Below are positions 14,991 through 48,416 of a DNA stretch of 64,000 nucleotides, in pieces. The position numbers were made by a program, and so were the translations under genes. The DNA is taken from IMG/VR virus record IMGVR_UViG_3300042463_000890, positions 22,649 to 86,648 of that record; one strand, 5' to 3'. The stretch's first letter is position 1, and each line of letters opens with the position of its first letter. The notes below the pieces were generated by a model. The model was not told the origin of the DNA. It worked only from the letters and a program-made list of their open reading frames with translations, and searched no databases. The stretch is from a virus.

Positions 14991-16024
14991 ATTAGATTAA
15001 TAAACAACTCTAATTTAGACTCTAAAACATCGTCATTTTTTTCTATTATAATTTTTAACACATCGTTTGTGTTAATTTGAATTTCACTAACATCTGAACC
15101 ATAATAATCGTTGTTAATATAAACATCAAAAGTATTAATATTTTCACTTAACCCGACAAGGATATTCGCGGTATAATTAAATAATTGAGACAAGGTTGTA
15201 TTACCAATAACAAAAATTAAATTTTCAGTAAAACTTGATGGGTCATCATCTTTTTTAACTTTTCTTTTTGTTGTTCTAGTATCAACTTCCACAACTTGTA
15301 GTAGTCTATTTATTGCAGGAGACACCTCAAATTCATCTTCATCAATTAAAAACCCTAACATAGTAAATTCATAACTTTGGATATAATATTTTCTTTTCTC
15401 AGCATCTAAAACAGATTCATCAGAAATATTATTCATAACTATTGGGATATAATGTCCTTTAATTACTTGATAGGCTTGTCTTGATGAAAATTTCTCTAAA
15501 ACAATTTTATTAAACTTATTTAATTCCCTCATTCTGTTACAAAGTATTTTAACTTGATAAGTAATATCGACAGGAACAGGTTGAGGTATTTTATATATGT
15601 CCATACCATGTCTATTACCATCCCATGTAGGAACTTGAGCATAAAAATATTGTCTTCTATTTGGTATGGTATATAATAAAGACGGGTTTGTACCATACTT
15701 AACTTCGGGAACTCTTACCGTTGTAATAAAAGGTAATTCAACATTTTTGTCTAAATTTTGTATATCCCAAGTTTCAGTAAACTGAGACCAATTTTGAGTT
15801 GTAACAATTATATCTATAGTCGGGACTGTTTTCCCTTCAACACTTAGTTTTAACTCGTCTTTTACAAAATCTAAAAACCCCCTATCCAAATCAGCGTGTA
15901 AAATAGATTTTGGCAGATATGTACCATCTTTATTAATTTTTTCAACTAATTCTTCCCTTCTAGGTAAAAGAGTTTTAGATGAGGTTAAAGGTATATTCTT
16001 TTTTATTTTTTTTGGTAATGGCAT
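14987..16024 (-). CDS. 15: Putative tail sheath stabiliser / tail completion protein, T4 gp15-like
   Basis: A 345-residue protein that matches the overall pattern of gp15-like tail completion proteins. It has a central strand pair PVDITYQVKILCNRMRELNK, where the family has an ITYELSIFTRYEDD-type segment. Next comes a helix NKIVLEKFSSRQAY, then HYIPIVMNNISDESVLDAE and YYIQSYEFTMLGFLIDEDEF, matching the conserved R-x2-E-x-S-x-T-F-E-x-x-G-W/F pattern. T4 gp15 caps the tail tube and sheath and joins the tail to the head. The C-terminal 80 residues form an extra beta-rich domain not expected in gp15. Placement upstream of the sheath and beside neck genes supports the call, which stays moderate. 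Confidence 0.5.
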   Translation of the reverse strand: MPLPKKIKKNIPLTSSKTLLPRREELVEKINKDGTYLPKSILHADLDRGFLDFVKDELKLSVEGKTVPTIDIIVTTQNWSQFTETWDIQNLDKNVELPFITTVRVPEVKYGTNPSLLYTIPNRRQYFYAQVPTWDGNRHGMDIYKIPQPVPVDITYQVKILCNRMRELNKFNKIVLEKFSSRQAYQVIKGHYIPIVMNNISDESVLDAEKRKYYIQSYEFTMLGFLIDEDEFEVSPAINRLLQVVEVDTRTTKRKVKKDDDPSSFTENLIFVIGNTTLSQLFNYTANILVGLSENINTFDVYINNDYYGSDVSEIQINTNDVLKIIIEKNDDVLESKLELFINLI

Positions 16025-17514
16025 TATTTTAAAATTTGAGGCATTTCATTAAAAATCGCCATTGTCTTTGAAACGACTTTGTAATTACGATTATCAAAAA
16101 TTAATATCTCATCATTTTTTGAGAAAGCTATTTTATCTACTTTTTTACCTGAATAATCTCTCATACCATAAGTATTAATTGTAAACACCCCGTTTTTATC
16201 GGTATAGGAAGATAAAGGTTTTATTTGATAACTAACACCGTCAATTATAACATCAACACCTCCCCATCTATCCATTTTAGAACCAAAAGGAAAATATACA
16301 ACGTTATTGGTATTCATTTTATTTAAAAACTTGTCAACCGAATCCTTTTCTAATTTAAATCCCCTTTCAATTGATTTCCATTGTCTATCAACTAAAAGTT
16401 TGACAAAGTTTTTATCTTTTTTAAATAGTTTTACCATCCAATCAACAATATCCCCTTCAAAAACATCATCAAAATATTTTAAATAAATTAAATTGTGTAT
16501 TTCTTCTTTTGTATCAAAAAAATTCATTATCGACCAATCTTCTCTAGGGTCCCCAATTTTACTACCTATTGTGTGTATACCTCTCAAACCTGGTGAAAAA
16601 ATGGGTGTCTCCGCTTTCCAATGTCTAGGAAAAGCTTTTTCTAACGCAGTTCTAATATTTGATGAAGTTATACCAATCTCTTCTGTTTTTTTAACTCCTT
16701 GATATTTCGGGTATGCTAATTCAAAATTTTCTTTAGTTATTGCAATAGTATTTTTTTCAGGGTTTATTATTAAATCCCCTTTGTTAAAAATGAAATCTCC
16801 TGACGCTCCTTCAATCTTTATTTTTCCATCAATTGGGTCGGGGTCATTAACTGGTAGAACACTATTAAAATAATATCTTTTAGTTGTGCCTTTTTCAAAA
16901 AGACCTAATGTGGTGTAGGTATATTTTGTCGGTTCTGATTCAGAGGTTTCTTCAGACTCTATCAATCTACTTGACACAATTTCAGAAATTACAAATAATT
17001 TGTTTTTTTGATTTATCATGTCAACTTCCTTGGCGGTATAAACAGGTTCTTCAGTGTCTTTATAAACAAACGAATCATATTTATATGGGTTATATGTAAC
17101 AATTTTACTTGACGATTCTTCAGGTATGTTATCACAAGGATATTCACAATAATCTACTAAAGTACCAATCACAAAGGCGTGAACATTCTTTGACATTTCT
17201 TGTCTAACACGTTGTTTCCCGCCCTGTCTAACTCTAAACTCAACATTTTTAAGTTTTACATAATCGGCATGTAAAATAACTTTTGACTTATATGTTACAG
17301 AAAATGTGTGTTTATGTAAATTATAATAAACCATAACTTTTTTACCTCGGTAATCTTCTTCAGAATTGTTATGACCACATTTATGACAAATAAACGGGTC
17401 ATTACCACCATCACTTAAGTCCCAAGACCAACCACAATTATCACAAATAACTTCTTGATTAGAAATTTTTTCTAATAATTTTGTTTTTTGTTTTTCTGTA
17501 ATTAATATTTTCAT
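16024..17514 (-). CDS. Zinc-ribbon protein with PD-(D/E)XK nuclease-like C-terminus
   Basis: A 496-residue protein. Residues 24-48 form a zinc ribbon (C24-x2-C27 ... C43-x2-C46, with W29/W31 and the GGNDPFICHKCGHNN run). The middle (residues ~60-270) is beta-rich and unrecognised. The last ~150 residues end in a nuclease-like core: RWGGVDVIIDGVSYQIKPLS, an Asp on one strand and Q-x-K on the next, as in PD-(D/E)XK enzymes, followed by a strand with DEILIFDNRNYKV. The SOD-fused protein at 20177 has the same C-terminal pattern. The N-terminus MKILITEKQ resembles that of the downstream gene (MNIIITENQ). The role is unknown: it may be packaged and act on DNA, or be a head-tail completion nuclease. 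Starts overlap neighbours by 1 and 4 bases. Confidence 0.5.
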   Translation of the reverse strand: MKILITEKQKTKLLEKISNQEVICDNCGWSWDLSDGGNDPFICHKCGHNNSEEDYRGKKVMVYYNLHKHTFSVTYKSKVILHADYVKLKNVEFRVRQGGKQRVRQEMSKNVHAFVIGTLVDYCEYPCDNIPEESSSKIVTYNPYKYDSFVYKDTEEPVYTAKEVDMINQKNKLFVISEIVSSRLIESEETSESEPTKYTYTTLGLFEKGTTKRYYFNSVLPVNDPDPIDGKIKIEGASGDFIFNKGDLIINPEKNTIAITKENFELAYPKYQGVKKTEEIGITSSNIRTALEKAFPRHWKAETPIFSPGLRGIHTIGSKIGDPREDWSIMNFFDTKEEIHNLIYLKYFDDVFEGDIVDWMVKLFKKDKNFVKLLVDRQWKSIERGFKLEKDSVDKFLNKMNTNNVVYFPFGSKMDRWGGVDVIIDGVSYQIKPLSSYTDKNGVFTINTYGMRDYSGKKVDKIAFSKNDEILIFDNRNYKVVSKTMAIFNEMPQILK

Positions 17515-20149: not shown

Positions 20150-20156
20150 TATTTAT
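20150..20156 (+). promoter_or_regulatory. Putative late promoter element TATTTAT for the SOD-fusion gene
   Basis: The plus strand reads GATTATTTATAGTATATT, with the core 20 bases before the ATG at 20177. It suggests late expression of the fusion protein. Confidence 0.5.
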
Positions 20157-20176
20157 AGTATATTAATTTTAGCCAC

Positions 20177-21715
20177 ATGAACAAATTAGAAGAAAGAGTT
20201 CATTTACTTAACGAACAAATACTCTTACAAGAAAAAAACCAAGACAAATTACATTTCCTTAATGAAATGAAAAAGATTGGTATAGAAAAATTACCATATT
20301 CTTATTCATCTTTAAAACAATTTATCGATTCTGAGACTATGTCTTATCACTATAACAAACATTATAAAGGTTATGTTGATAAACTAAATAAAGCTCTGTC
20401 AAAAAAGGATTACGGTGATTTAGAATTAGAAGAAATTATTAAATCAATTAGTAAATACAATACCACAATTAGAAACAATGCGGGAGGAGCGTTCAATCAC
20501 GCTTTGTTTTGGAAAATGTTATCCCCAAAAAAACAAACTCCTAAAGGAGACTTATTGAAAAAATTAAAATCCGATTTTGGAAGTTTTGAAAAATTTAAAA
20601 CTGAATTTGAAGAAATTGCTAAAGAAAGATTCGGTTCAGGTTGGGTTTGGTTAGTTTTAACTAAAAAAAATCAATTAAAGATAATGTCCACCCCTAACCA
20701 AGATAACCCATTAATGAATGTTGTTAAAAGTGGTGGGTACCCAATATTAGGGTTAGATTTATGGGAACACGCATATTATCTAAAATACAAAAATAAAAGA
20801 GACGAGTATATCTCTAACTTTTGGAAATGTGTTAATTGGGATTTTGTAGACGAATTATTTTCATTACGCTCTAATAGAAAATTAAATGAAGGGAATATTA
20901 TTAAACAAGTAATTAGTGAAGGTATTTCTGAAAGATGTTCGAGAGAAGAAAATGAAGCAATACGATTTATTTTTAACATTAATCCAAAGGTTAAACAAAT
21001 TTTTAGATTAAAAATAGATTCTATTTTAAAAGAAGTCTTCAAAGAAAATTACTATGAAAAAGGTGAATATGGTGAAAATGAATCTTCAGGTATCTATGAT
21101 TTAGAGACTGAAGGTAGGTCAGTAATTAATAAACTTAACACTAACTACACTTGTTTTTGTATTTTATTAAATGATGTTAATAAAGTTTTAGAATATGAAA
21201 AACAACCTAAAATTAAATTGATTGGACAACCTCCCTTTGTTCAGATTAGTGAAACTAAAAAATTTGTTAATGTAATTGAAAAATACAAAGACAGAATTTT
21301 TAACATACAGTCACCAACGTTTTCAAACCTAATGTCAACTTTAACTAAAACAAATTCAATTGGAGATAAAACTGAAAACTCAACCGTTAATATTTTAAAG
21401 AAAAAATTTGGTGAGGAAAACGTTGTTCAGATTGGTAAATTAGGGAGTACTGAAGACATGGTTGGGGGTGTTGATTGTGAGATAGTAATTGATTCCATAA
21501 CTTACACCGCACAAATAAAACCTTACACTAATTTTAAAAAGATTGATGATAGTTATGTGGTTTACGGCACAGGTCAAGTTAAACCGTATAAAACAGACTT
21601 TTTAATTTTTACTAAAAGTAATAAAGATGTTTTAGTTTTTAAAAATGAATCTACTAAAATCATAAATGGTAATTTTGTTTTACCTGTGGGTAATTTAATT
21701 TATCAACTCAATTGA
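20177..21715 (+). CDS. Fe/Mn superoxide dismutase fused to a PD-(D/E)XK nuclease-like domain
   Basis: A 512-residue fusion. Residues ~35-230 form a complete Fe/Mn SOD, which converts superoxide to oxygen and peroxide. Metal ligands are H58 (SYHYNKHYKGYV), H108 (RNNAGGAFNHALFW), D194 and H198 (LGLDLWEHAYYLKY), with Y66 and H62 also present. Gly104 and Gln175 (STPNQDNPLM) match the Mn type. The N-terminus is extended by ~35 residues and lacks a signal peptide. Residues ~235-390 are helical and unassigned. The last 120 residues show MVGGVDCEIVID followed by YTAQIKP, a D...Q-x-K pattern like the zinc-ribbon protein at 16024. It has a late-type promoter element. A virion-packaged enzyme that protects injected DNA is one idea, as inference only. 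Confidence 0.85.
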   Translation: MNKLEERVHLLNEQILLQEKNQDKLHFLNEMKKIGIEKLPYSYSSLKQFIDSETMSYHYNKHYKGYVDKLNKALSKKDYGDLELEEIIKSISKYNTTIRNNAGGAFNHALFWKMLSPKKQTPKGDLLKKLKSDFGSFEKFKTEFEEIAKERFGSGWVWLVLTKKNQLKIMSTPNQDNPLMNVVKSGGYPILGLDLWEHAYYLKYKNKRDEYISNFWKCVNWDFVDELFSLRSNRKLNEGNIIKQVISEGISERCSREENEAIRFIFNINPKVKQIFRLKIDSILKEVFKENYYEKGEYGENESSGIYDLETEGRSVINKLNTNYTCFCILLNDVNKVLEYEKQPKIKLIGQPPFVQISETKKFVNVIEKYKDRIFNIQSPTFSNLMSTLTKTNSIGDKTENSTVNILKKKFGEENVVQIGKLGSTEDMVGGVDCEIVIDSITYTAQIKPYTNFKKIDDSYVVYGTGQVKPYKTDFLIFTKSNKDVLVFKNESTKIINGNFVLPVGNLIYQLN

Positions 21716-31839: not shown

Positions 31840-33711
31840 TTATATTCCTCCTCCATCAGATATTGACCATAATTTTGTTCCTGTAAGATAAGTTCTACTT
31901 GCTCCTGCCGTCGCAATTGTGTACACAGAGTTTCCACCATTAAATGTTACACTTGATTGCAATGAACCTCCTAATGACGCCCATCCGTTAAGTAAAGAAT
32001 TATAATTAGGTGTTGATAATGTCACACCGTTAAACATATTAAACATTAGTACAACTGAAGAAACATTCCAAGAACCTAAATCTTGGTCAAATAATGGGGC
32101 GTTGTTAAACATATTATCCATGTTTGTGACATTAGAAACATCCCAGTTTCCTAATGGTTGGTTAAATGATGTTGCGGTGTTAAACATATTAGACATGTCT
32201 GTAACACCTGAAACATTCCATACGTCTATTGGTTTGTTAAAATTCGCCGTGTTATTGAACATTGAGGACATATTTGTAACATTAGAAACATCCCAATTAT
32301 CTAGTGGTTGATTAAAGTTTAATGCCGAGTTAAACATACTAGCCATGTTTGTAACACCTGAAACATTCCAAGTATTTAAATCTTGATTGAAACTTGATGT
32401 TATCTGGAACATCCCTGACATGGATGTTACAGATGATACATCCCAACTACTAATTGATTGGTTAAACATTGTACACTGAGAGAACATACTTGACATGGAT
32501 GTTACAGATGATACATCCCAAGAATCTATTCCTAACGACCCTCCATTATTAAATATGGTACAACTTGCAAACATACCAAACATGGTTGTAACATTTGATA
32601 CAACCCAAGAACTTAAATCTTGGTCAAATGACGAACATCCGCCAAAAGTACTAAACATACTTGTAATATTTGATACGTCCCAAGAACTAACGTTACTGAT
32701 TGTAGTTATAGATGTACATCCCCCTAAAAATCTAGCTAAATGGGTAACGCCACTTAAATTTAAAACATCACTTACTGAATTTAATGTTAGGTTAATACAT
32801 TGAGCAAAGGCGGAGTTACTTATAGTTGACGGACCTAAACTAAAACATCCCCATTGTAATATTCCTGTTATTTTTTCTAAATCCCCTGTCTGTTGGAAAC
32901 TCCATCCTTCTAATAAACCTGTAATAGTTATTGTGTAATCACCAGAAGATGAGTAAGTATGAGTAGTTTCAGGTTGATTCCATAATGTTATAGTGTCCGT
33001 AGGACCCCCATCCCCCCAATCAACAATAAAGTTATATGTTCCTAAGGAAACTAATGGTAATTTTACTTGATTTGATAACGTTGAGCCTGGAGAAGTATTT
33101 GTTGTATTCCAAGTACTTATAAACGCCAAATTAGGTGGTGTTTGAGTTGGTGTTGGAGTAATGGTAGGGGTTATTGTTTGTGTAGGTGTTATAGTTGGCG
33201 TCAAAGTTGGCGTTTGAGTAGGGGTTGCAGATGGTGGTGGAGGTATGGGGTTGCAAGCCCCTTCGGTACATGGTAATGATATGTCAAACACAACACCATC
33301 TTCCGCAAATGGTGAATTACCACAAACATATATTGTTGTTAACGCAGGAACAGAACCATAAAAATAATTTCCGTCACACTGAATGTACTCTATATTAACG
33401 GATGAAGGAGATATGTTTTCAAACTGAATACATCTACACTCTGAAGGAGTTGTTGTTGGAGTTAAAGTCGGTGTTGGGGTCGGTGTTGCGGTAGGGCAAT
33501 TATATAAATGTAAAAATTCGCACCCATTAGAATCAATCATTTTAACCATTACAGATGAAACAATATCTAACGGATACACCAAGGTATATAAAAAATTTGG
33601 CGGAAAACTAATTCCTGACCCCGCTAAAACACAATATGTGAGAGTATAATCACATACGTAGATATCATAAGGTCCTGTACCTGTCGCTCCTGTTATTTCT
33701 ATTTGATACAT
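31840..33711 (-). CDS. Adhesin-like virion protein with DUF285 (BspA-type) leucine-rich repeats
   Basis: A 623-residue multi-domain protein. The N-terminal ~75-residue beta domain (MYQIEITGATGTGPYDIYVC) ends in [18 protein letters not shown] second small Cys-rich domain follows, then a second linker (TPTQTPTLTPTITPTQ). Next comes a PKD-like or Ig-like strand set (YNFIVDWGDGGPTDTITLW, TYSSSGDYTITITG). Then come nine DUF285 repeats of about 25 residues (for example SSWDVSSVTSMSGMF, NTWNVSGVTNMASMF). DUF285 repeats are found in surface proteins of Bacteroidetes, Mollicutes and others, and bind extracellular partners. The protein is probably a tail-fibre or head-fibre tip that recognises the host surface. 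It lies 48 bases upstream of the glycosyltransferase operon. Confidence 0.8.
   Translation of the reverse strand: MYQIEITGATGTGPYDIYVCDYTLTYCVLAGSGISFPPNFLYTLVYPLDIVSSVMVKMIDSNGCEFLHLYNCPTATPTPTPTLTPTTTPSECRCIQFENISPSSVNIEYIQCDGNYFYGSVPALTTIYVCGNSPFAEDGVVFDISLPCTEGACNPIPPPPSATPTQTPTLTPTITPTQTITPTITPTPTQTPPNLAFISTWNTTNTSPGSTLSNQVKLPLVSLGTYNFIVDWGDGGPTDTITLWNQPETTHTYSSSGDYTITITGLLEGWSFQQTGDLEKITGILQWGCFSLGPSTISNSAFAQCINLTLNSVSDVLNLSGVTHLARFLGGCTSITTISNVSSWDVSNITSMFSTFGGCSSFDQDLSSWVVSNVTTMFGMFASCTIFNNGGSLGIDSWDVSSVTSMSSMFSQCTMFNQSISSWDVSSVTSMSGMFQITSSFNQDLNTWNVSGVTNMASMFNSALNFNQPLDNWDVSNVTNMSSMFNNTANFNKPIDVWNVSGVTDMSNMFNTATSFNQPLGNWDVSNVTNMDNMFNNAPLFDQDLGSWNVSSVVLMFNMFNGVTLSTPNYNSLLNGWASLGGSLQSSVTFNGGNSVYTIATAGASRTYLTGTKLWSISDGGGI
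32040..32700 (-). repeat. About nine 75-base DUF285 repeats inside the adhesin gene
   Basis: Units of about 25 codons run from SSWDVSNITSMF near 32700 to GSWNVSSVVLMF near 32040, each carrying W-D/N-V-S-x-V-T-x-M and a later F-N/D-Q. The second unit is longer (29 codons). DNA identity between units is visible by eye, which could allow recombination and change of length. Confidence 0.75.
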
Positions 33712-34849: not shown

Positions 34850-37800
34850 TTAAAACTTATTTTCTATCGCTAAACAAATTTCACCTTGTTCGTTTATTAA
34901 TCTTTGCATATCGGAAAAACTTATAAATGCGTAACCATTCTTACCCCATGAACGACCCCAACTATTTTTAATTCTAAATAGTTTAGTTCTTAAATCAACA
35001 CCGTTTATTACGTAAGCATGTCCACCAGCAATTCTACCACTAGCTTTAATTAAACCGTTTTTATTAGGATAGAACATACCTTGATACCAGTTGGTACCAA
35101 CAACTACTGGCCCTTTAACTAAAACCGTATTTATTAAAACCGATAAATCGTATGTCCATAGATATGACGAGATTTTTCCAGTGTTTTTCAAATATTTCGC
35201 ACCTCCTCTAACAGATGTTCCATCATAATTTTCACCAACCCATTCATCTAATCTTTGTGCTTGTTTATAAATTGTAGTTGGATTTATTATTGGTGGTACA
35301 CCTCCGTGTTTTATAGGACCGTCCTCAATCCAATGAGCCCAAGCATACCCAACACATTGAGGAGTATTTCCTTGATTACCCCACCATTCCTCTGAATCCC
35401 AATATTTTGAGGTTAATGTTGTCGGCCTAAATTGTAACCTATTTTCAATTAAAAACAATTTATCTCTTTTGTCTTCAATATAAATTCTACCTAACGGTTG
35501 TGGGTCAATATTAGTCGTTGTTGTAGTTGTAGGATTAAATGTTGTAGTTGTTGTAGTTGTAGGATTAAATGTTGTAGTTGTTGTAGTTGCCGTTGGTGTC
35601 GGGGTATCTCCTGTAGTGTATCCAAAATCATCAGGTAAACATTCTAAAGTAGTACAATCAGGACAATCAGGGTTAAACATCCTAAACGTATTTTTTAATA
35701 ACAAGAAATTATGTTTAACCTCAGGTGCAGATAAAGGAGTTACGTACATTCTAAACTGAGATATCGCACCTTCAAAAGTACCTGCAAAATTTTGTTCAAT
35801 TAATATATTTGTTTTTAATCCATTAAATGTTGTTCCTGTTAAATCGTTTGTTGGGAAATTTTCAGGGTCTTGCTGATACGGGCCAAAATATAAAATCTCC
35901 TCTCTTGTTACCAATGTTAATATATTAGTACTAGATGGATTTGTTATTACAGGAGTATCATCCCATTTAGCAATAATAGTACCCGTTTCATTTGTTAAGT
36001 TTGATAAAATCTGAGGTTCACCAAAACAATCTAAATAAGTTATATCAGTTGTAACATCTCCTATTGAATAATTCCATACAGAACATGCTCTAAATGTTAA
36101 GTTTTCTCTTAACCCCTGAGTACCCCCGCCCCAAGACACATTAAATGGTACTCCTACTTGTTTTTCTTTATCGGTGTTTAAAGCTCTTGGTATAATCTCT
36201 TCAAAATCTTCAATAGTCCAAAATAACTTACCATTTATATAAATTTTAAGTCGACCTTTTCTATATTTTTTTTCTAATAACCATTTTTCATTAAGATTAA
36301 CGATTTCTATTTTTTCGGCCTCTTCCGCTTCAGGACGAGTATATGGAACAGTAATTAAAGATGAAGTATTGTTAGCCAGTGATTGTAGGTATAACTTTTT
36401 TGTTATATCACCTAACCCACCTCGATACCATAAATCACAATCATCGAACCAAGTGTATCTTTCCCAAACCGCATCGACTTGGAACCAGTGTTCTAAGTCT
36501 AACCACGCAGGGTTTATTTTAAAACAATCAGGATAAATTGGTGGTGAACAATAATCTAAAACAGTGTAACCTGTTGTATATGTTACACCTGTTGTAGAAC
36601 AAGAACCTGTTGTTTCACAATCTCCTGTAAACAACAATACTCTTACCCCTATTTGAGGATTTTTAGGTTCTCCACATAATCTAAAGGACAACGCATTAGA
36701 TAATGAATCGTATAATGGGTCTTTTTCACAAGTATCTTCTATAGAAGTAAAACCAGTGTTAGGCGGACATGTATCACAATCGTTACAAGTTTCACATTTA
36801 GTACAAGAAGGTGTACAAACAGGAGGTAATATACAACCTTCTGATATTGGTGTAGGAGATGGTGTTGGTGTTGGAGTTGGAAAAATAACCGACTCACATT
36901 TATGAGTTTGACATTCCCACCCACAAGATTCACATTTCACCTCACCACAACCGCATCCACATGAAATACTTTTACTTGGGTTACCGTTACACTTATCACA
37001 ACCATAATTAACATGTGGGTCATGAACACCACCTTCAGACCTTGGTGGGTAAACAAATATACAACGACTATCTGTTATAGTTTTATTACAACAAGCACAA
37101 GTGGTTAATCCTGTTAAAGGTGTAGTTATACGAGTGTATCCCGTAAAACAATTTGGGGTCCCGTCAGCGTGATGGTAGAATTTATTTTCCGCTCTTGTAC
37201 CAAAATAAAAAAATGTATTTTTGTTTTTTGGGTATATTTTGTTTAGAGTGGTCTCACCAGGACCTGGAAAAAATTCATCCTCTAATCTTGGTTTGAGTAA
37301 CATTTCAACAGACCAACCCTTGTTCATCCTTTCGGGGAAGATATTATAGTCGTAACCAAATAACCTATAAAATCCTTGATAAAATCCTCCATATAATTCA
37401 TGGTACCTACCCTCAAAAGGACTAAATTTACTTACAACTTCATACAATACGACATCAGGAAATCCTGAAAATCTAACTATATCAAGAGCGGTATTTGCGG
37501 TTACTTGAAATAATTTTAGTCTTCTATCAAAACTTAATCTATCAAATTTTTCTGAATTACTTAATAAACCTTGAGTAAAGGTTATTGTTTGACCTGTCAT
37601 ATACTCAACTAATCCATTATCAACACCTGTTAATCCAATGTCACAAGAAGTTGACGATGTAAAACATTTTAAATCTAAATCTTTAGGATTATAATAATTT
37701 TGGGAGACAAAAATATTATCTCTATTATAATTTTTATAAGTTAAAGTTAAATTCTGAGCAGTTTCAGGGTTATTAATATCAAAATAAAAAGGTAATCTAT

Positions 37801-37951
37801 TACCATAAGTTTGCGCAATCAAATAAGGTGAAAATACCACCTCTTGATTAAAATCCATTTCATCACTAGTCAATGACATGTCATGAGCGTCTAAAGACAA
37901 CTTAGGAAACAAATTTGGTCTTACATATTGATTTATATTTTGACTCGCCAT
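34850..37951 (-). CDS. Large virion protein with Cys-rich module, LamG-like region and papain-like protease domain
   Basis: A 1033-residue protein. Residues ~1-270 are beta-rich and unassigned. Residues ~275-400 are Cys-rich (CACCNKTITDSRCIF, CGCGCGEVKCESCGWEC, SCTKCETCNDCDTC) with a [11 protein letters not shown] linker, and look metal-binding. Residues ~430-760 resemble a concanavalin/LamG-type lectin fold (LDLEHWFQVDAVWERY; FEGAISQFRMYVTP). Then come TTTTTTFNP repeats and, at the C-terminus, a papain-family (C1) peptidase with C866 (TPQCVGYAWAHWIE), H978 (GGHAYVINGV) and N996 (FRIKNSWGRSWGKNGYAF). The Gln oxyanion residue sits just before Cys. A role in host surface degradation or fibre maturation is inferred. 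First gene of a four-gene run; late promoter at 37962. Confidence 0.85.
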   Translation of the reverse strand: MASQNINQYVRPNLFPKLSLDAHDMSLTSDEMDFNQEVVFSPYLIAQTYGNRLPFYFDINNPETAQNLTLTYKNYNRDNIFVSQNYYNPKDLDLKCFTSSTSCDIGLTGVDNGLVEYMTGQTITFTQGLLSNSEKFDRLSFDRRLKLFQVTANTALDIVRFSGFPDVVLYEVVSKFSPFEGRYHELYGGFYQGFYRLFGYDYNIFPERMNKGWSVEMLLKPRLEDEFFPGPGETTLNKIYPKNKNTFFYFGTRAENKFYHHADGTPNCFTGYTRITTPLTGLTTCACCNKTITDSRCIFVYPPRSEGGVHDPHVNYGCDKCNGNPSKSISCGCGCGEVKCESCGWECQTHKCESVIFPTPTPTPSPTPISEGCILPPVCTPSCTKCETCNDCDTCPPNTGFTSIEDTCEKDPLYDSLSNALSFRLCGEPKNPQIGVRVLLFTGDCETTGSCSTTGVTYTTGYTVLDYCSPPIYPDCFKINPAWLDLEHWFQVDAVWERYTWFDDCDLWYRGGLGDITKKLYLQSLANNTSSLITVPYTRPEAEEAEKIEIVNLNEKWLLEKKYRKGRLKIYINGKLFWTIEDFEEIIPRALNTDKEKQVGVPFNVSWGGGTQGLRENLTFRACSVWNYSIGDVTTDITYLDCFGEPQILSNLTNETGTIIAKWDDTPVITNPSSTNILTLVTREEILYFGPYQQDPENFPTNDLTGTTFNGLKTNILIEQNFAGTFEGAISQFRMYVTPLSAPEVKHNFLLLKNTFRMFNPDCPDCTTLECLPDDFGYTTGDTPTPTATTTTTTFNPTTTTTTTFNPTTTTTTNIDPQPLGRIYIEDKRDKLFLIENRLQFRPTTLTSKYWDSEEWWGNQGNTPQCVGYAWAHWIEDGPIKHGGVPPIINPTTIYKQAQRLDEWVGENYDGTSVRGGAKYLKNTGKISSYLWTYDLSVLINTVLVKGPVVVGTNWYQGMFYPNKNGLIKASGRIAGGHAYVINGVDLRTKLFRIKNSWGRSWGKNGYAFISFSDMQRLINEQGEICLAIENKF

Positions 37952-40680: not shown

Positions 40681-41901
40681 ATGTCTAAAAAAATTAATGT
40701 TTTAATACTACCATCGGATAAAACTGGTGTTGGTAAATTTCGCTCTGTAGACCCTCATATTATGCTACAAAACATGTATCCTGATGATTTTCATGTGGAT
40801 ATTGATTATGAACCTAGATTGAATGACCCTAACTTTTGGAAAAAGTACCAAATTGTACATGTACATAGAAATATTGGTAATAATTATGACCAAACACCTC
40901 ATTTAATTAGAACTCTAAAACAAATGGGTATTGTTGTTATTGTGGATATCGATGATTATTGGTTACCAACTAAAGAACACCCAATTCATTCAATTATCCT
41001 ACACGATAAAATACATGAAAAAATTATTACAAATTTAAAAGAGGCTAGTTATGTTACAACTACAACAAAAATATTTGCCGATGAAATTCGTAAATTTAAC
41101 AAAAATGTTGTGGTTTTACCAAACGCAATTAACCCAGATGAACCACAATTTAAACAAGCAACAGAAGATTCAGATAAAATAAGAGTCGGTTGGTTAGGCG
41201 GTTCCTCTCACTTATACGATTTAAAACTTTTAGAAGGGTTTATTTCAAAAAATGGTAGTGATATAAATAATAATGTACAATATGTTATTTGTGGATTTGA
41301 CACACGAGGTTCTGTGACTGAAATTGACCAAAAAACAGGACAAAGAAAACAAAGACCTATTAGACCTGAAGAAACTGTTTGGGCAAGATATGAAGAAATT
41401 TTTACTAACAAGTATGGGTTGATTGACGAAAACTATAAAAAGTTTTTGTTAGAATTTAAAGAACAAGAATATAAATCAGATTATACATTACCTTATAGAC
41501 GAGTTTGGACAAAACCTGTAAATGAATATGCGATGAATTATTCTAAATTTGACATTTCATTGGCACCTATTAAGAATCACATATTTAACAGGATGAAGTC
41601 CCAACTTAAAGTTATTGAGGCTGGTTTTTACAAAAAAGCTTTAATCGCATCTCAAGTAGGTCCTTATACTATAGATTTAAAACACGCATTAAAAGAAGGT
41701 CAATTTACTGATGGTAACGCGTTATTAGTTCAAGAAACAAGAAATCACAGTGATTGGTCTAAGTTCATTAAAAAATTAGTACAAAACCCAAATTTAATTA
41801 CTGACTTGGGTGAACGTCTTTATGAAACTGTTAAAGACACTTATGATTTAAGAAACGTGACAATAACAAGAGCAGAATTTTATAAATCATTAATTAAATA
41901 A
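40681..41901 (+). CDS. GT-B glycosyltransferase (GT4-like)
   Basis: A 406-residue GT-B enzyme. N-terminal lobe: INVLILPSDKTGVGKFRSVD, then YQIVHVHRNIGNNYDQ and a strand IVVIVDIDDYWLP. The junction AINPDEPQF is followed by IRVGWLGGSSHLYDLKLL, the donor-side lobe with its conserved G-W-x-G. The C-terminus shows FDISLAPIKNHIFNRMKSQLKVIEAGFYKKALIAS, the E-x(7)-E-like nucleotide-sugar region of GT4 enzymes. It is the first gene of the long cluster, with a host-like promoter upstream. Donor and acceptor are unknown. Confidence 0.8.
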   Translation: MSKKINVLILPSDKTGVGKFRSVDPHIMLQNMYPDDFHVDIDYEPRLNDPNFWKKYQIVHVHRNIGNNYDQTPHLIRTLKQMGIVVIVDIDDYWLPTKEHPIHSIILHDKIHEKIITNLKEASYVTTTTKIFADEIRKFNKNVVVLPNAINPDEPQFKQATEDSDKIRVGWLGGSSHLYDLKLLEGFISKNGSDINNNVQYVICGFDTRGSVTEIDQKTGQRKQRPIRPEETVWARYEEIFTNKYGLIDENYKKFLLEFKEQEYKSDYTLPYRRVWTKPVNEYAMNYSKFDISLAPIKNHIFNRMKSQLKVIEAGFYKKALIASQVGPYTIDLKHALKEGQFTDGNALLVQETRNHSDWSKFIKKLVQNPNLITDLGERLYETVKDTYDLRNVTITRAEFYKSLIK

Positions 41902-41902
41902 T

Positions 41903-42376
41903 ATGGAAGCACCAAAAAAAGTTATCGGTTTTACTGCGGGTAATTTTGACTTATTACACCCTGGATACATTTATACGTTTGAGACTGCAAAACAACATTG
42001 TGATTATTTTATGGTTTTTTTACAAAGAGACCCTTCTGAAACAAGATTTACAAAATATAAACCTGTAATTCCTCTTTATGAAAGATATAAAACTTTAATG
42101 TCGATTAAGTATATTGATGAGGTTGTAACATATCAAACTGAAGAAGACTTAATTAAATTAATTGAATTTTATAGACCTGATGTTAGGATTCTTGGGGATG
42201 ATTACATTGGTAAAAGATTTACTGGTGACCATCTGCCGATTAAAGTAATATATACTACTCGTTCACATAATTGGTCTACAACAAAGATTAAAGATTTAAT
42301 TACCGTTCAGACAATCAAACAAAATCCTGAAATTTTAAATAAATTAGAAAATTATGATAAAGATACCAATAACTAA
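41903..42376 (+). CDS. Cytidylyltransferase-like nucleotidyltransferase (TagD/RfaE-C type)
   Basis: A 157-residue enzyme that activates a phosphorylated small molecule with CTP or ATP. The first loop reads GFTAGNFDLLHPGYIYTFE. Family members normally have H-x-G-H here; the second His is Tyr. Further signatures are DYFMVFLQRDPSE, IPLYERYKTLMSIKYIDE, PDVRILGDDYIGKRFTG, and SHNWSTTKIKDLI near the C-terminus. It probably makes an NDP-activated polyol or sugar for the glycosyltransferases. It starts 1 base after the preceding stop and overlaps the exonuclease by 23 bases. Confidence 0.75.
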   Translation: MEAPKKVIGFTAGNFDLLHPGYIYTFETAKQHCDYFMVFLQRDPSETRFTKYKPVIPLYERYKTLMSIKYIDEVVTYQTEEDLIKLIEFYRPDVRILGDDYIGKRFTGDHLPIKVIYTTRSHNWSTTKIKDLITVQTIKQNPEILNKLENYDKDTNN

Positions 42377-43076
42377 AATTTTATTTTTAGACATTGAAAC
42401 TGTTGGGTGTTGTCCTGACTATGAAGTTTGCCAGAATTTAAATCCTGAAATGGCTAATCAATATGAAAAGTATTTTGATTGGTTTTTAAAAAGATTTCCT
42501 GAAGATAACCAAATTGGGATGGAATCTTTAACACATCAAATGAATGAGGTCTTTAAAAAACGAGCAGGTCTTGTACCTGAATTTGCCAAAATAATTTGTG
42601 TTAGTATGGCCTTTGTTATGGATAATGGAGAGGTTAAAAAACAAACATTTGCAAGTGATGATGAAAAAGAAATCCTTACTCAAGTTCAAAAACTCTTAGT
42701 TAGATGCGGTAACTTAGATTTCTTTTTATGTGGACATAATCTAAAGAATTTCGATATTCCTATGTTGGCCAAAAGAATGATAATTAATGGATTAACTCCT
42801 CCATCAATTCTCCCATCTTATGATACCAAACCATGGGAAGTTAAGGCTATCGACACCAAAGAAATTTGGCAATATGGGTCATATACTTCAATAGGGTCTT
42901 TAGATTTATTATGTACATGTTTAGGAATTGAGTCTCCTAAAGATGGTGAAATTACTGGAGATAAAGTACATAAATCTTATTGGGAAGAGAATAAATTATC
43001 TGAAATTTCAGAATATTGTGAAAAAGATGTTAAAGTATTAATCGACATTATTAAAAAATTAAAAGAACTACAATGA
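42354..43076 (+). CDS. DnaQ-like 3'-5' exonuclease
   Basis: A 240-residue DEDD-family nuclease of the PolB-like predicted exonuclease group. Motif I is KILFLDIETVGCCPDY (D-x-E), motif II FFLCGHNLKNFDIPML (D), and motif III YCEKDVKVLIDIIKKL (Y/H-x3-D). A long insertion (EVFKKRAGLVPEFAKIICVS) precedes the second strand as in that family. It likely degrades single-stranded DNA or trims ends in repair or in host nucleotide recycling. It overlaps the dUTPase gene by 4 bases, and with it forms a small DNA-metabolism pair inside the glycan cluster. Confidence 0.8.
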   Translation: MIKIPITKILFLDIETVGCCPDYEVCQNLNPEMANQYEKYFDWFLKRFPEDNQIGMESLTHQMNEVFKKRAGLVPEFAKIICVSMAFVMDNGEVKKQTFASDDEKEILTQVQKLLVRCGNLDFFLCGHNLKNFDIPMLAKRMIINGLTPPSILPSYDTKPWEVKAIDTKEIWQYGSYTSIGSLDLLCTCLGIESPKDGEITGDKVHKSYWEENKLSEISEYCEKDVKVLIDIIKKLKELQ

Positions 43077-43663
43077 CACCAAATTTGATAGATTTACAAG
43101 AACAATTAAAGAAATTACAAGACATGGTTAATAGTGAAGAAGAGATTGACTATGATGATATAATGAATGAAATTGGTTTAGACATCAAACAATTAGATGA
43201 GGACATGAGAAATTACACTCCTCAATTACCTTTAAAATTCTCTAAATTACATCCTGATGCGGTTGAGCCTAAGTATAACTACCCAACCGACTCAGGTTTT
43301 GACTTACATTCAGTAGAAGATTTAGAGATTCCTGCTTTTGGTAGAATTTTAGTACCAACAGGACTTTCTTTCGATATTAAAGATGGATATGAAATCCAAG
43401 TTAGGTCTAAAAGTGGTTTGGCAATTAAACAAGGACTAATGGTTCTTAACTCACCAGGTACTGTTGATAACGGTTACACGGGCGAAGTACAAGTAATTGT
43501 TTTTAACACCAACAATTATTCTGTGGTCATTCCTAAAGGTATGAAAGTTGGTCAAGCGGTTTTATGTCCTGTAGTTAATGGTAAATGGGTTGAGCTGATT
43601 GAAAAAAATAAAATATCTGAAAAGGATAGAGGTAATAACGGATTTGGTAGCACAGGAATATGA
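43073..43663 (+). CDS. dut: dUTPase (trimeric dUTP diphosphatase)
   Basis: A 196-residue enzyme that hydrolyses dUTP to dUMP and pyrophosphate and keeps uracil out of phage DNA. All five trimeric motifs are present: 1, YPTDSGFDLHSVED; 2, IQVRSKSGLAIKQG; 3, NSPGTVDNGYTGEVQVIVFN; 4, GMKVGQAVLCPV; 5, RGNNGFGSTGI. The N-terminus is ~50 residues longer than usual, with an acidic coiled segment (LIDLQEQLKKLQDMV; EEEIDYDDIMNEIG). It overlaps both neighbours by 4 bases, so expression is coupled. Confidence 0.93.
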   Translation: MTPNLIDLQEQLKKLQDMVNSEEEIDYDDIMNEIGLDIKQLDEDMRNYTPQLPLKFSKLHPDAVEPKYNYPTDSGFDLHSVEDLEIPAFGRILVPTGLSFDIKDGYEIQVRSKSGLAIKQGLMVLNSPGTVDNGYTGEVQVIVFNTNNYSVVIPKGMKVGQAVLCPVVNGKWVELIEKNKISEKDRGNNGFGSTGI

Positions 43664-45156
43664 TAACTATAATTTATTCAACCCATAAAAATACAGAATA
43701 CAATAACAAGTTTAAACAACATTTGTTACAAACTGTTGGATTGAAAGATGTCCAAATTTTAGAATATCAAAATAATAACCAATATTCACTCACCCAAGTT
43801 TATAATAGTGGTATTACCGAATCAATCTATGATATAGTTGTTTGTTGTCATAATGATATCAAACTTGAAAAAAATTGGGGTAAAAAATTAATTGATGATT
43901 TTTCTAAAAACCCCGAATTCGGTATAATTGGAAAAGCAGGGTCATGTTATTTTCCTGAATCAGGGGTTTACTGGGAAAAGATGAATAAAACTATGGTTGG
44001 TCAAGTATACCATCATCCTGAAGGTCAAAATAAATGGTTAAGTAGGTATTCTGAAAAATTGCCTTTTTTAATTCCTGTTGTAACAATTGATGGTCTTTTT
44101 ATTTCATTTGATAAAACAAAAATAAAATATAAATTTGATGAATCTTTTGGTAGATTCCACTTTTATGACCATGGGTTTTGTTTACCAAATTATATTAATG
44201 ATGTTAAAATAGGTGTTACCTCATCTTTTGAAATTACTCACCAATCTGTAGGTCAGCCAAATCAAGAATTTTATGAGTCCAAAGAAAAATTTTTAAAGAA
44301 ATATGGACATATGTTACCAATGGATTTAAAACCTTCTGAAGTTTTTTACGAAAAAATACAAGAAAAATCTTTAAAAGGTGTCGGTAAAGTTGCGGTTGTA
44401 ATACCAACAAAAGGTAAAATAGAAATGTTGTTTGATTGTGTTAATTCATTTTATCAGCACTGTAACTCAAACTTATTTGAAATATTAATTGCTGACACAG
44501 GTTCTTCAGATGAAGAAAAAGAGTGGATTAAAAATAACATATTAAAATTAGGTAATGTTAAATTAATCGAATACGATTATTACAATTTCGCTAAAATAAA
44601 TAATGATGTAGTTAAAAATCATACCGATGAAACTCATGAGTTTATACTTTTTTGTAATAATGATATAAAAATTTTAAATAATGTTATTTACGGATTACTT
44701 GAAAGTTTTAAACGATTTCCACAAGCAGGAACTATTGGTTGTAGACTTCATTATGATGATAACACCGTACAACATGATGGAATTGTTGCCAAAGTAGATT
44801 CTAATAAAATGTTTAGGGTCGATAACAAATCAACAGGGTCTTATTACAATTACACAACAAATAGTAAAGAAGTTTTAGGTAATTCCGCGGCTTTATTTAT
44901 GATTAGAAAAAATGTTTTTATTAAACTTGGGATGTTTAATGAAAAGTATTCTAATTGTTTTGAAGATGTTGAAATTAACCTTAAATCAATAGTTATGGGT
45001 CATAGAAATTATATTTGTGGTAATTGCGTTGCGTATCATTACGAAAGTAAAACAAGGGAAAGGAATGCTGATGTTGAAAAACAAGACTACTATAATAATT
45101 TAATCCCATTCGTTCAAAAATATCTTGATAAATTCATCACTAAGTTATATATTTAA
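43660..45156 (+). CDS. Two-domain glycosyltransferase (GT2-like)
   Basis: A 498-residue protein. The first half (MITIIYSTHKNTEYNNKFKQ, IYDIVVCCHNDIKLEKNW, VVTIDGLFISFDKTKIK) looks like a GT-A domain with N-D in place of DxD. The second half is a typical GT2: VAVVIPTKGKIEMLFDCVNS, LIADTGSSDEEKEWI, EFILFCNNDIKILN (metal site), then GNSAALFMIRKNVF and NCFEDVEINLKSIVMGH with the E-D catalytic pair. It may add two sugars. It follows dut with a 4-base overlap and precedes the aminotransferase-like gene by 2 bases. Confidence 0.75.
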   Translation: MITIIYSTHKNTEYNNKFKQHLLQTVGLKDVQILEYQNNNQYSLTQVYNSGITESIYDIVVCCHNDIKLEKNWGKKLIDDFSKNPEFGIIGKAGSCYFPESGVYWEKMNKTMVGQVYHHPEGQNKWLSRYSEKLPFLIPVVTIDGLFISFDKTKIKYKFDESFGRFHFYDHGFCLPNYINDVKIGVTSSFEITHQSVGQPNQEFYESKEKFLKKYGHMLPMDLKPSEVFYEKIQEKSLKGVGKVAVVIPTKGKIEMLFDCVNSFYQHCNSNLFEILIADTGSSDEEKEWIKNNILKLGNVKLIEYDYYNFAKINNDVVKNHTDETHEFILFCNNDIKILNNVIYGLLESFKRFPQAGTIGCRLHYDDNTVQHDGIVAKVDSNKMFRVDNKSTGSYYNYTTNSKEVLGNSAALFMIRKNVFIKLGMFNEKYSNCFEDVEINLKSIVMGHRNYICGNCVAYHYESKTRERNADVEKQDYYNNLIPFVQKYLDKFITKLYI

Positions 45157-45158
45157 TT

Positions 45159-45788
45159 ATGGCTAACGGAATATATAAAATAACAGAGGACTTCGAAAAA
45201 GAATTGTCCGAATACACAAAAGCGCCGTATGTTGTTACGGTAGATAACCAAAGTAACGCATTGTTTTTATCATTAATGTACGAAAAAGTAAAAGGTATGG
45301 AAATTGAGATTCCTTGTCGAACTTACCCTTCAGTACCATGTGAGATAATTCATGCAGGAGGTAAAGTTAAATTTAAACCTGTCGAAGGTAAAACCATAAA
45401 AGGGTCTTATCAACTATACCCAACCAAGGTATGGGATTCAGCACTTTCATTTACTTACGGAATGTATAAACCAAATACCCATATGTGTATTTCATTTACA
45501 GGTCCATATAAACATTTTAAATTATCTAAAGGTGGGGCAATTTTAACTGATGATTATGACGCTTACTTGTGGTTTAAAAGAGCTAGATACAGTGGTAGAA
45601 GAGAATGTTCTTATCATGATGACCATTTTGATATGTTAGGATGGAATTTTTACATGATGCCTGAATTAGCCGCAAGAGGAGTTTTATTAATGAAACAATT
45701 TTATAATGTAGATGGTACTCCTAAACACAATGAAGACTTAGAATTACCATATCCTGATTTATCTAAATTTGATGTCTACAAAAAATAA
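45159..45788 (+). CDS. Compact DegT/DnrJ/EryC1-like aminotransferase-family protein
   Basis: A 209-residue protein homologous to the N-terminal PLP domain of sugar aminotransferases (usual length ~370-400). It shows VVTVDNQSNALFLSLMYE (substrate/PLP phosphate site), IEIPCRTYPSVPCEIIHAGG, KVWDSALSFTYG (Asp that grips the pyridine nitrogen), and ISFTGPYKHFKLSKGGAILT. In the family the last region carries the PLP lysine as S-F-x3-K; here an extra residue places Tyr at that site and the Lys one later. The C-terminal domain is absent. It could be a degenerate or novel compact enzyme. It likely serves amino-sugar synthesis with the NeuD-like acetyltransferases downstream. Overlaps the next gene. 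Confidence 0.7.
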   Translation: MANGIYKITEDFEKELSEYTKAPYVVTVDNQSNALFLSLMYEKVKGMEIEIPCRTYPSVPCEIIHAGGKVKFKPVEGKTIKGSYQLYPTKVWDSALSFTYGMYKPNTHMCISFTGPYKHFKLSKGGAILTDDYDAYLWFKRARYSGRRECSYHDDHFDMLGWNFYMMPELAARGVLLMKQFYNVDGTPKHNEDLELPYPDLSKFDVYKK

Positions 45789-46479
45789 ACATATCTGTAT
45801 ATTCATTTGTTACAATAATTTTGAACATATTGTAAAATGCTTTGAGTCTGTAAAAAATTTACCAATTGATTTTTTTATAATTGAAAATTTTTCTGAGAAT
45901 TCGGGTCATATTGAGGAATTTTTTAGAAACCAAAATATTAAAGGGTATGTTCAATTTGAGAAGAACATTACAAATAATGCGGTAAACGTAATAAAAAAAG
46001 ATTTTTCCGATTTATTTGAATCGTATGAGTACATCACTTTTTCGGACTGTGACTTATTAACCGCAAATTCACAGTCTTTGTTTGATGAAATTTATAAAAT
46101 TTTAGACTACGACGATGTTGGAGTTTGTTGTTCTTCGCTATCTATGAATAATTTACCTAACGTACCCGACTCCAACTCTTGGATACCTCAGCCAATTTCA
46201 TTTCACAAAGATTATATCAATACTAATACAGGTATTCATTTTATGACAATGAAACAAAAAAATTATAAATTATTGGATGATGTTAATTTCAAAGATGGAC
46301 ATATGTCATCGATAATTAGAAATAAGAAATTAAAGTGGGTATCGACAAAGTATAACAACGTTATACATCTCACATGGGATTTATATCATAAAGGTAATGA
46401 TTATTATGAATATAAAATTAAAAATAAATCGACCATTTGGAATCATTCTGAGACTTCTAATTATAAAATAGTAAAATGA
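45772..46479 (+). CDS. GT-A glycosyltransferase-like protein
   Basis: A 235-residue protein; the ATG at 45772 is preferred to a TTG one codon earlier. First strand KHICIFICYNNFEHIVKCF, then DFFIIENFSENSGHI, and the metal site YEYITFSDCDLLTANSQ (S-D-C-D, matching DxD). A later IHFMTMKQKNYKLLDDVNF and KLKWVSTKYNNVIHLTWD suit the acceptor side of GT2-type enzymes. It overlaps the aminotransferase-like gene by 17 bases and the next gene by 4. Donor unknown. Confidence 0.65.
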   Translation: MSTKNKHICIFICYNNFEHIVKCFESVKNLPIDFFIIENFSENSGHIEEFFRNQNIKGYVQFEKNITNNAVNVIKKDFSDLFESYEYITFSDCDLLTANSQSLFDEIYKILDYDDVGVCCSSLSMNNLPNVPDSNSWIPQPISFHKDYINTNTGIHFMTMKQKNYKLLDDVNFKDGHMSSIIRNKKLKWVSTKYNNVIHLTWDLYHKGNDYYEYKIKNKSTIWNHSETSNYKIVK

Positions 46480-47057
46480 AAAAAGCATTAATTGGTTTTG
46501 GCGGGCATTCTAGAGAGGTGATAGCCCAAATGGACCAAAAAATACCATGTTTTGTGGACGACCAATATGTGAGACATGAAGATGACACAATTCCACTTTC
46601 ATTATTTAATCCTGAAGAATATGAAGTAATGATTGCCATATCCAATCCAACTAATAGAATGGAAGTTGTAAATAGGTTACCGAAAAAAACTAAATTTTTT
46701 AATTTCATACACCCAACGGCATTGATAATGTCGGATGTGAAAATAGGTCATGGATGTTTTATAGGTGCTTATTCTGTTGTTACCACTAACATTACAATTG
46801 GTAACCACTGTATTTTAAATCGAGGTAACCACATAGGACACGATTCAATGATAGGAGATTTTTTTAGTTCTATGCCATGTTCAGTTGTATCTGGAAATTG
46901 TACAATAGGGAATAGAGTTTACTTAGGAACTAATTCATCTATACGTGAAAAAATTGAAATCTGTGATGACGTAACTATCGGGTTAAATTCGGGAGTTGTT
47001 AAAAACATAAAAGAAAGTGGTGTGTATGTCGGGTCACCATCAAAAAAAATTAAATGA
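46476..47057 (+). CDS. NeuD/PglD-like sugar O/N-acetyltransferase
   Basis: A 193-residue left-handed beta-helix acyltransferase. The N-terminal Rossmann-like part KKALIGFGGHSREVIAQM is the sugar-binding domain typical of NeuD/PglD. From HPTALIMSDVKIGHG onward the hexapeptide repeats are clear (IGAYSVVTTNITIGNH, LNRGNHIGHDSMIGDF, SGNCTIGNRVYLGTNSSI, CDDVTIGLNSGVV), ending VYVGSPSKKIK. The catalytic His is probably in RGNHIGHDSMIG. It transfers acetyl from acetyl-CoA to an amino or hydroxyl group of a nucleotide sugar. A second copy lies at 49886. Confidence 0.85.
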   Translation: MKKALIGFGGHSREVIAQMDQKIPCFVDDQYVRHEDDTIPLSLFNPEEYEVMIAISNPTNRMEVVNRLPKKTKFFNFIHPTALIMSDVKIGHGCFIGAYSVVTTNITIGNHCILNRGNHIGHDSMIGDFFSSMPCSVVSGNCTIGNRVYLGTNSSIREKIEICDDVTIGLNSGVVKNIKESGVYVGSPSKKIK

Positions 47058-47779
47058 TGAAAAATATAAAATTAGGTATTGTTATTGCCACCTATCGTAG
47101 AGATGATGGAAAAAGTTCTGAATTTTTATACAGAACATTAGAGAGTATAAAAAAACAAACTTATAAAAATTATAAAATATTTTTAATAGGTGATAAATAC
47201 GAAAAACCAAACGAAGTTATCCAAATAATAGAAAAACTACAATTAAAGAATATATATTTTGAGAATTTACCTGTTGCTAAAGAACGAGAAAAATATACAG
47301 GTCATACCTTATGGTCTTACGGTGGTGTGAACGCAATTAATCACGGAGTTAAAAAAGCTTTAAATGAAGGATATGAATATATCTGTCATTTAGACCATGA
47401 TGATTGGTGGTATGAGAATCATTTAGAATTAATTAATGAATGTATTAATAAAACTAACTCCGATTGGATTTGTACTAAATCTACTTACAGAAACCCATTT
47501 TTTTTCTTACCAAGAATAGAGTCTAATGATTTGTATTATCCAATAGAACCTAGGTCCTCTTCATTAATTCACTCTTCAGTATGTATGAATTTTAAAAAGA
47601 TTCCATTGTTATATAGGGATATTTATGAAGAAACAGGGGTATGTGGATTACCTACCGATGCAGACCTATGGGAAAGATGTAGAGGTTATATACAAAAAAA
47701 TAATTTAAAAAGTATATTAATAAACCGAATAACTTGTCGACACGATGAAGAAGGATACGAAAGACTTAAAAAAAATTAA
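47054..47779 (+). CDS. GT2-family glycosyltransferase
   Basis: A 241-residue GT-A enzyme. It starts IKLGIVIATYRRDDGKSS, with the usual T-Y-x-R start and SIKKQTYKNYKIFLIGD as the second strand. The metal motif is YEYICHLDHDDWWYENHLEL (D-H-D-D). The acceptor half has SRSSSLIHSSVCM-like and CGLPTDADLWERCRGYI (D-A-D-L). Overlaps by 4 bases with the acetyltransferase before it and 35 bases with the methyltransferase after it. Donor unknown. Confidence 0.75.
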   Translation: MMKNIKLGIVIATYRRDDGKSSEFLYRTLESIKKQTYKNYKIFLIGDKYEKPNEVIQIIEKLQLKNIYFENLPVAKEREKYTGHTLWSYGGVNAINHGVKKALNEGYEYICHLDHDDWWYENHLELINECINKTNSDWICTKSTYRNPFFFLPRIESNDLYYPIEPRSSSLIHSSVCMNFKKIPLLYRDIYEETGVCGLPTDADLWERCRGYIQKNNLKSILINRITCRHDEEGYERLKKN

Positions 47780-48416
47780 CATTACAAAAGAATCATTAGA
47801 TATGGTTAACCATATCATTAAAAACATGGACGGTAAATCTTTCCATAATCATTACCATATTTTATTTGATATTTGTAATGACTTGGGAAAAAATAATATA
47901 ACTTATTTAGAAATCGGAGCGTATTGTGGAGGTTCCGCATCATTAGTATCAACAAATAAAAATGTGTCTAAAGTTTATAGTATTGATATTGGTAAACCTA
48001 TTTCTAAAGAAATACCAATAAAAAATGTGAATAAATTTAAACACGATAATTGTTATTACGAATATGTTCAAGGAGATTCAATGTCTAATAATGTTATTGA
48101 TTTAGTTAAATCTAAAATAGAAAAAGTAGACGTTCTTTTTATTGATGGGGACCATACATATAACGCGGTGATAAATGATTTTAATAACTATAAAGACTTA
48201 GTAAACGAAGGAGGATTTATAGTTTTTGATGATTACAATGATAAAAACCATAGTCCTCAGGTATTTCCTGCGGTTAACGATATTGTAAAAACATTAGATA
48301 CCGATGAGTATGAAATTATTGGTAGTTTAGTTTATGATTTGTTAAAGATGACTAATATTCCTCATTTTTCGGAAAGTAATGAATTTATTTTAAGAAAAAA
48401 ATATCTTAATGAGTAA
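47745..48416 (+). CDS. Class I SAM-dependent methyltransferase (Methyltransf_24/CmcI-like)
   Basis: A 223-residue Rossmann methyltransferase. Motif I is ITYLEIGAYCGGSASLV, motif II KVYSIDIGKPISKEI, then VQGDSMSNNVIDL and motif IV DVLFIDGDHTYNAVINDF (the D-G-D-H metal/SAM site of this group), followed by GGFIVFDDYNDKNHSP. The same family as the enzyme at 28511, although the sequences are distant. It likely methylates a sugar hydroxyl in the glycan. The start at 47745 overlaps the preceding gene by 35 bases; an internal start at the MVNHIIKNMDG Met is an alternative. Confidence 0.75.
   Translation: MKKDTKDLKKINITKESLDMVNHIIKNMDGKSFHNHYHILFDICNDLGKNNITYLEIGAYCGGSASLVSTNKNVSKVYSIDIGKPISKEIPIKNVNKFKHDNCYYEYVQGDSMSNNVIDLVKSKIEKVDVLFIDGDHTYNAVINDFNNYKDLVNEGGFIVFDDYNDKNHSPQVFPAVNDIVKTLDTDEYEIIGSLVYDLLKMTNIPHFSESNEFILRKKYLNE

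Follow-up and report, generated by a model that had tools for sequence, protein, structure and literature searches.

A gene on an 86,648-base virus fragment was found to encode an Fe/Mn superoxide dismutase (SOD) followed, co-linearly and in one 512-codon frame, by a predicted PD-(D/E)XK-type module, and the conserved L/I-x-E motifs of its N-terminus and linker suggest that the product is probably a late-made internal capsid precursor, which would be packaged and separated by a protease into a pair of injected enzymes. The part of the fragment that was analyzed, called here the window, is 64,000 nucleotides long, and all coordinates below refer to it. The features considered, with their support, were the following:

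20150..20157, plus strand: late-type promoter motif TATTTATA
20177-21715, plus strand: fusion gene, from the ATG at 20177 to the stop at 21715, 512 amino acids, frame unbroken
20177..20266, plus strand: N-terminal tag, residues 1-30, a putative capsid-targeting propeptide
20258-20266, plus strand: site A, L28-N29-E30 before M31; [LI]xE in 33/33 non-redundant homologs
20285..20854, plus strand: Fe/Mn superoxide dismutase domain, residues 37-226 (Pfam, PDB phmmer, invariant ligands)
20882..20890, plus strand: site B, L236-N237-E238, in the linker; [LIM]xE in 33/33 non-redundant homologs
20912..20920, plus strand: site C, I246-S247-E248, the second linker site; [LI]xE in 32/33 non-redundant homologs
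20921..21712, plus strand: PD-(D/E)XK nuclease-like module, residues 249-512 (AlphaFold, Foldseek against PDB and BFVD, invariant residues)
21374-21376, 21473-21475, 21512-21514 and 21518-21520, plus strand: catalytic-type residues E400, D433, Q446 and K448, respectively
16024..17514, minus strand: paralogous carrier, with a MKILITE tag, a zinc-ribbon-like part, an L5_gp82 domain and the nuclease module (residues ~384-485)

Both Pfam families of the SOD domain were matched full-length and above the cut-off (Sod_Fe_N, PF00081, E=2.4e-22, 79.7 bits; Sod_Fe_C, PF02777, E=2.6e-41, 140.2 bits), and phmmer placed bacterial SODs of the Mn or Mn/Fe kind at the top of the PDB matches (E about 1e-60). 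The metal ligands H58, H108, D194 and H198 were invariant among 48 aligned homologs, as was the outer-sphere pair G104/Q175, a pattern which suggests a SOD of the Mn type; the four intact ligands and the Mn-type Gly104/Gln175 of the original prediction were thereby borne out. Since all of these residues are present and invariant, the SOD domain is likely to be enzymatically active.

A scan of IMG/VR yielded 585 relatives, the best 80 of which matched over nearly the whole length with 58-100% identity. Among the loci gathered from this database, 154 ORFs, independent or overlapping, contained both halves; because many of the contigs overlap, the 33 non-redundant versions (~52-89% identity), recovered from many IMG/VR metagenomes, are the safer count. 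A frame break at residue ~235 was looked for and none was present in the 512-aa ORF, so that the unbroken frame, together with the 154 ORFs and their 33 non-redundant versions, ruled out an assembly or sequencing artefact and established that the fusion is real. Its carriers are widespread, uncultured, mostly lake-type phages.

The C-terminal module gave nothing significant in Pfam, PHROGs or PDB sequence searches and no tblastn match in cultured phages, and no relatives were found in bacterial or archaeal genomes. An AlphaFold model built with 40 homologs had a mean pLDDT of 87, and its only confident fold matches in the PDB were PD-(D/E)XK enzymes, namely I-Ssp6803I and Hjc resolvases (Foldseek probability 0.9-1.0 for the top matches, with a best E-value of just 6e-3 and none below 1e-3). 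E400, D433, Q446 and K448 were invariant; in the model, E400 lies on a helix, and the strands that come after it carry D433 and Q446-x-K448, which is the order expected for this fold. The module is thus predicted to be of the PD-(D/E)XK type with a Q-x-K variant. A C-terminus of this kind had been anticipated, and its fold was supported by the model and the invariant residues, whereas the anticipated length of 120 residues fell short: the module spans ~265 residues, of which the final ~130 form the catalytic core and the other ~130 an extra helical N-terminal part. The predicted core fold is common to I-Ssp6803I and archaeal Hjc, but the module has no sequence similarity to them, and the ~130-residue helical part is an addition.

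In BFVD, the C-terminal module matched A0A6J5L953, a 501-aa protein of an uncultured Caudovirales phage (TM 0.88, 40% identity), which is most likely the same SOD-nuclease fusion; its record describes a superoxide dismutase alone and leaves the nuclease part unnamed. The claim that no phage protein has this fusion must therefore be given up, a relative having been deposited under the name of superoxide dismutase only. A second BFVD entry, A0A8D9CCA0, from an uncultured marine phage, contained the nuclease module (TM 0.78) inside a longer uncharacterized protein of 1113 aa, and may represent another cargo arrangement of the module. In the open literature searched, no description of a SOD-nuclease phage fusion or of a packaged phage SOD was found. 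Within that literature the joining of the two domains, the conserved cut sites inside the protein and the class of tags in this uncultured lineage appear undescribed; lone phage SODs, capsid-targeted enzymes and the deposited A0A6J5L953 are already known.

The conservation of the three L/I-x-E sites stood out from their surroundings. E30, E238 and E248 were 98-100% conserved in an alignment in which the first 36 residues and the post-SOD linker otherwise drift, E30 and E238 being invariant among the aligned homologs. The AlphaFold model of the full protein had pLDDT values below 50 exactly at residues 18-46 and 233-251, and the sites would be exposed, as they sit in segments left disordered. 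The prohead protease gp21 of phage T4 cleaves C-terminal to L/I-X-E, and removes the short N-terminal capsid-targeting propeptides of the T4 internal proteins; such short sequences are enough to package even foreign nucleases (PMC9026906). Sites A, B and C are putative prohead-protease sites on these grounds. The fusion linker, KLNES...VISEG, also resembles a RLTESDL...INE tag found in relatives, a likeness which suggests that the SOD may have been inserted into an already tagged nuclease gene.

A SOD-less version of 309 aa, found at nine loci of one lineage (L147-L155), occupies the same genomic place as the fusion, between a SNF2 helicase and a neck gene. What remains in it is the N-terminal tag, including site A, then site C and a nuclease that shares ~93% identity (246/265 residues) with its counterpart in the nearest version to bear a SOD; the SOD and site B are both lacking, indicating that SOD and nuclease are separable and that tag plus nuclease form the stable core. 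The paralogous carrier at 16024-17514 matched PF25735 (E=5e-31), a domain like gp82 of Mycobacterium phage L5, and its C-terminus aligned with the nuclease alignment (hhalign E=1.8e-9); the orthologue of this gene in L155 (2760-3206) was without the nuclease. In the relative G002 a free-standing module was detected, flanked by the genes for the prohead protease and the scaffold (E=4.9e-8 over 203 columns). Each SOD-free carrier of the module in the loci examined opens with an L/I-x-E tag or with a near variant of it (MKILITE, MKITISE). As its catalytic residues are invariant and it occurs without the SOD, the nuclease-like module seems to be a self-standing enzyme.

A Peptidase_S77 (gp21) gene and a Gp23-type capsid protein were identified in four long relatives (G001, G002, G004 and G006), and a partial Gp23 match in a fifth; the gp21 homolog of G002 lies at 117245-117670 of that genome. 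The 86.6-kb record to which the window belongs, itself a fragment, yielded neither gp21 nor gp23. In all four capsid proteins the N-terminal pro-region ended at LINE, followed by AT. In comparisons confined to the proteins of two relatives, the short motif L/I-x-E was enriched in residues 2-12 in both: 73 proteins versus 38 expected (shuffle maximum 57) in one, and 56 versus 30 (shuffle maximum 43) in the other. The variants [VM]xE, [FYW]xE, [AG]xE and [LI]xD were depleted at the N-termini of these relatives; [LI]xxE was also raised, partly because tags like IITE fit both motifs. The RLTESDL tag was carried by 14 proteins of 13 body families and the MK-I-I-TE tag by 26 proteins of 17 body families, so that, with near-identical tags on dissimilar bodies, the tag behaves as a portable address signal.

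Dozens of small unrelated proteins with portable L/I-x-E N-terminal tags were observed in loci L184-L209 of G002 and G004, the tag types being MKKIIRLTESDLxRIVKRVINE, MKFIITESQ, MNLQESIRRILREE and MKNLxLISE..ILNLH. By their tags, these small proteins are candidate injected capsid proteins.

The Pseudomonas phage PA5oct offered a separate check on whether tagged proteins belong to the virion. Its lone SOD (L091, 3031-3579) has a short N-terminal extension resembling a T4 propeptide, MNDSIKKYISIAE followed by AASS, and carries an ESI-MS/MS mark in GenBank. L/I-x-E was no commoner among the MS-marked proteins of this phage (12/28 versus 24/55); this phage therefore lends no independent support, and the N-terminus of the PA5oct SOD (SIAE followed by A) was not counted as support.

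The late-type promoter attributed to the fusion gene was supported by conservation and by strand bias. The motif TATTTATA also precedes the SOD gene in the homologs compared. Counted on the coding strand within 70 nt upstream of genes, it occurred before 48 genes in G002, where its reverse complement reached 13, and before 36 in G004, against 9. Many of these genes are structural, and the set includes those for the portal, the terminase, the tail tube and the neck as well as several tagged genes.

Other regions of the window were also annotated. A 1033-aa probable structural protein (34850-37951, minus strand) ends in a cysteine protease domain of the papain family (PF00112, E=3.6e-7), and an unusual probable surface protein (31840-33711, minus strand) consists of Thr-Pro repeats and then many DUF285 (Mycoplasma-type) repeats (E=2.6e-84). 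A sugar-modification island (40681-51151, plus strand) encodes several glycosyltransferase-like proteins, along with CTP_transf-like, DegT aminotransferase-like and PglD-like acetyltransferase products; an enzyme of beta-keto acid cleavage (BKACE, E=1.7e-59) is encoded there too.

The conserved L/I-x-E sites, the gp21 gene and capsid site of the relatives and the class of tagged proteins all lend indirect support to packaging. We propose that the protein is made late, as a precursor of internal capsid proteins, and that its N-terminal tag would bring it into the prohead, where a gp21-like protease would cleave after L/I-x-E at residues 30, 238 and/or 248. The products of the 59.5-kDa protein would be a Mn-type SOD of ~24.5 kDa (about residues 31-238) and a PD-(D/E)XK nuclease of ~30 kDa (about residues 249-512), which would stay in the head beside the DNA and enter the cell upon infection. 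The SOD would then clear superoxide at entry or during early takeover, and it could shield the packaged DNA earlier, while the nuclease would act on DNA, most likely that of the host or of a competitor. We infer packaging from motif conservation and genomic context only; cleavage, injection, the two activities and the physiological roles belong likewise to the proposal.

An ordinary auxiliary role for the SOD was weighed against this proposal. A cytoplasmic enzyme could protect the infected host from reactive oxygen species, in sunlit water or during the oxidative burst of a protist, with the nuclease as an unrelated fused partner and the L/I-x-E motifs as mere linker residues; freshwater phages bear many genes for defense against reactive oxygen, SODs included, for which this role has been proposed (PMC6802176), and the catalytic residues here are intact. 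We regard this as unlikely, given that it leaves unexplained why E30, E238 and E248 are nearly the sole conserved residues in drifting, disordered segments and why the nuclease bears a like tag elsewhere, and that a late-type promoter is less in keeping with a protective enzyme needed early than with virion proteins.

Two further readings assign other roles to the parts of the protein. The nuclease-like part might anchor an uncut SOD to the head DNA and guard it from oxidation, a tethering that the original prediction had suggested and with which the fusion itself, the conserved order of its parts, the predicted PD-(D/E)XK fold and a basic calculated pI of 9.0 are compatible. The two conserved putative cleavage sites in the disordered linker between SOD and nuclease point instead to separation, the invariant catalytic residues fit an enzyme and not a binder, and the module persists without the SOD, all of which makes tethering very unlikely. 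Alternatively, the nuclease could serve head assembly or the processing of DNA ends, in the manner of a head-completion nuclease or resolvase, with the SOD as a passenger for folding or oligomerization. The nearest folds (Hjc resolvases and I-Ssp6803I), the G002 paralogue flanked by the prohead protease and scaffold genes and the survival of the nuclease after SOD loss are in its favor, but the invariance of the four SOD ligands and of the outer-sphere residues would be superfluous in a mere scaffold, and the head-cluster paralogue is patchy (15 loci, none at that position in G004); this role seems highly doubtful to us.

The packaged pair of enzymes can be put in broader terms, to which we give about an even chance: a phage polyprotein whose antioxidant and nuclease would be parted in the capsid by the phage's own head protease and then both injected, forming part of a large cargo addressed by tags in a widespread lineage of uncultured jumbo phages. 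If so, the phage would carry a ready-made superoxide defense into the cell along with its genome, superoxide would be a relevant threat at phage entry or within the particle, and SODs annotated as 'AMG-like' in freshwater phage surveys would become virion-protein annotations. The L/I-x-E propeptides on dozens of unrelated proteins would constitute a readable address tag, which could predict the injected proteins of uncultured jumbo phages.

Among known systems, the Fe/Mn SODs that stand alone in jumbo phages (PA5oct-like Pseudomonas phages and Vibrio phage 2.275.O) are likewise encoded by large phages, but have about 29% identity to the fusion, no nuclease part and no linker sites; for the SODs of freshwater phages, a role in keeping infected cells alive under reactive oxygen has been put forward (PMC6802176). 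A precedent for a virion-packaged SOD is provided by the chlorovirus PBCV-1, whose Cu/Zn SOD (A245R) is the product of a late gene, is packaged in the virion and has been tied to lower superoxide in infected cells (PMC7019647); it differs in its metal (Cu/Zn, not Fe/Mn), in belonging to an algal virus and in having no fused nuclease, and its packaging has been shown, whereas here we infer it. The closest parallel in organization is with the capsid-targeted, gp21-processed and injected proteins IPI-IPIII and Alt of T4. Their cargo is not a SOD plus a nuclease with putative cut sites in between, their packaging is not a proposal as it is here, and the tags here show no match to the T4 tag beyond the cleavage motif; the L/I-x-E cut motif, the N-terminal propeptide and the late structural context are nevertheless alike, and the four long relatives, like T4, encode proteins of the gp21 and gp23 types.
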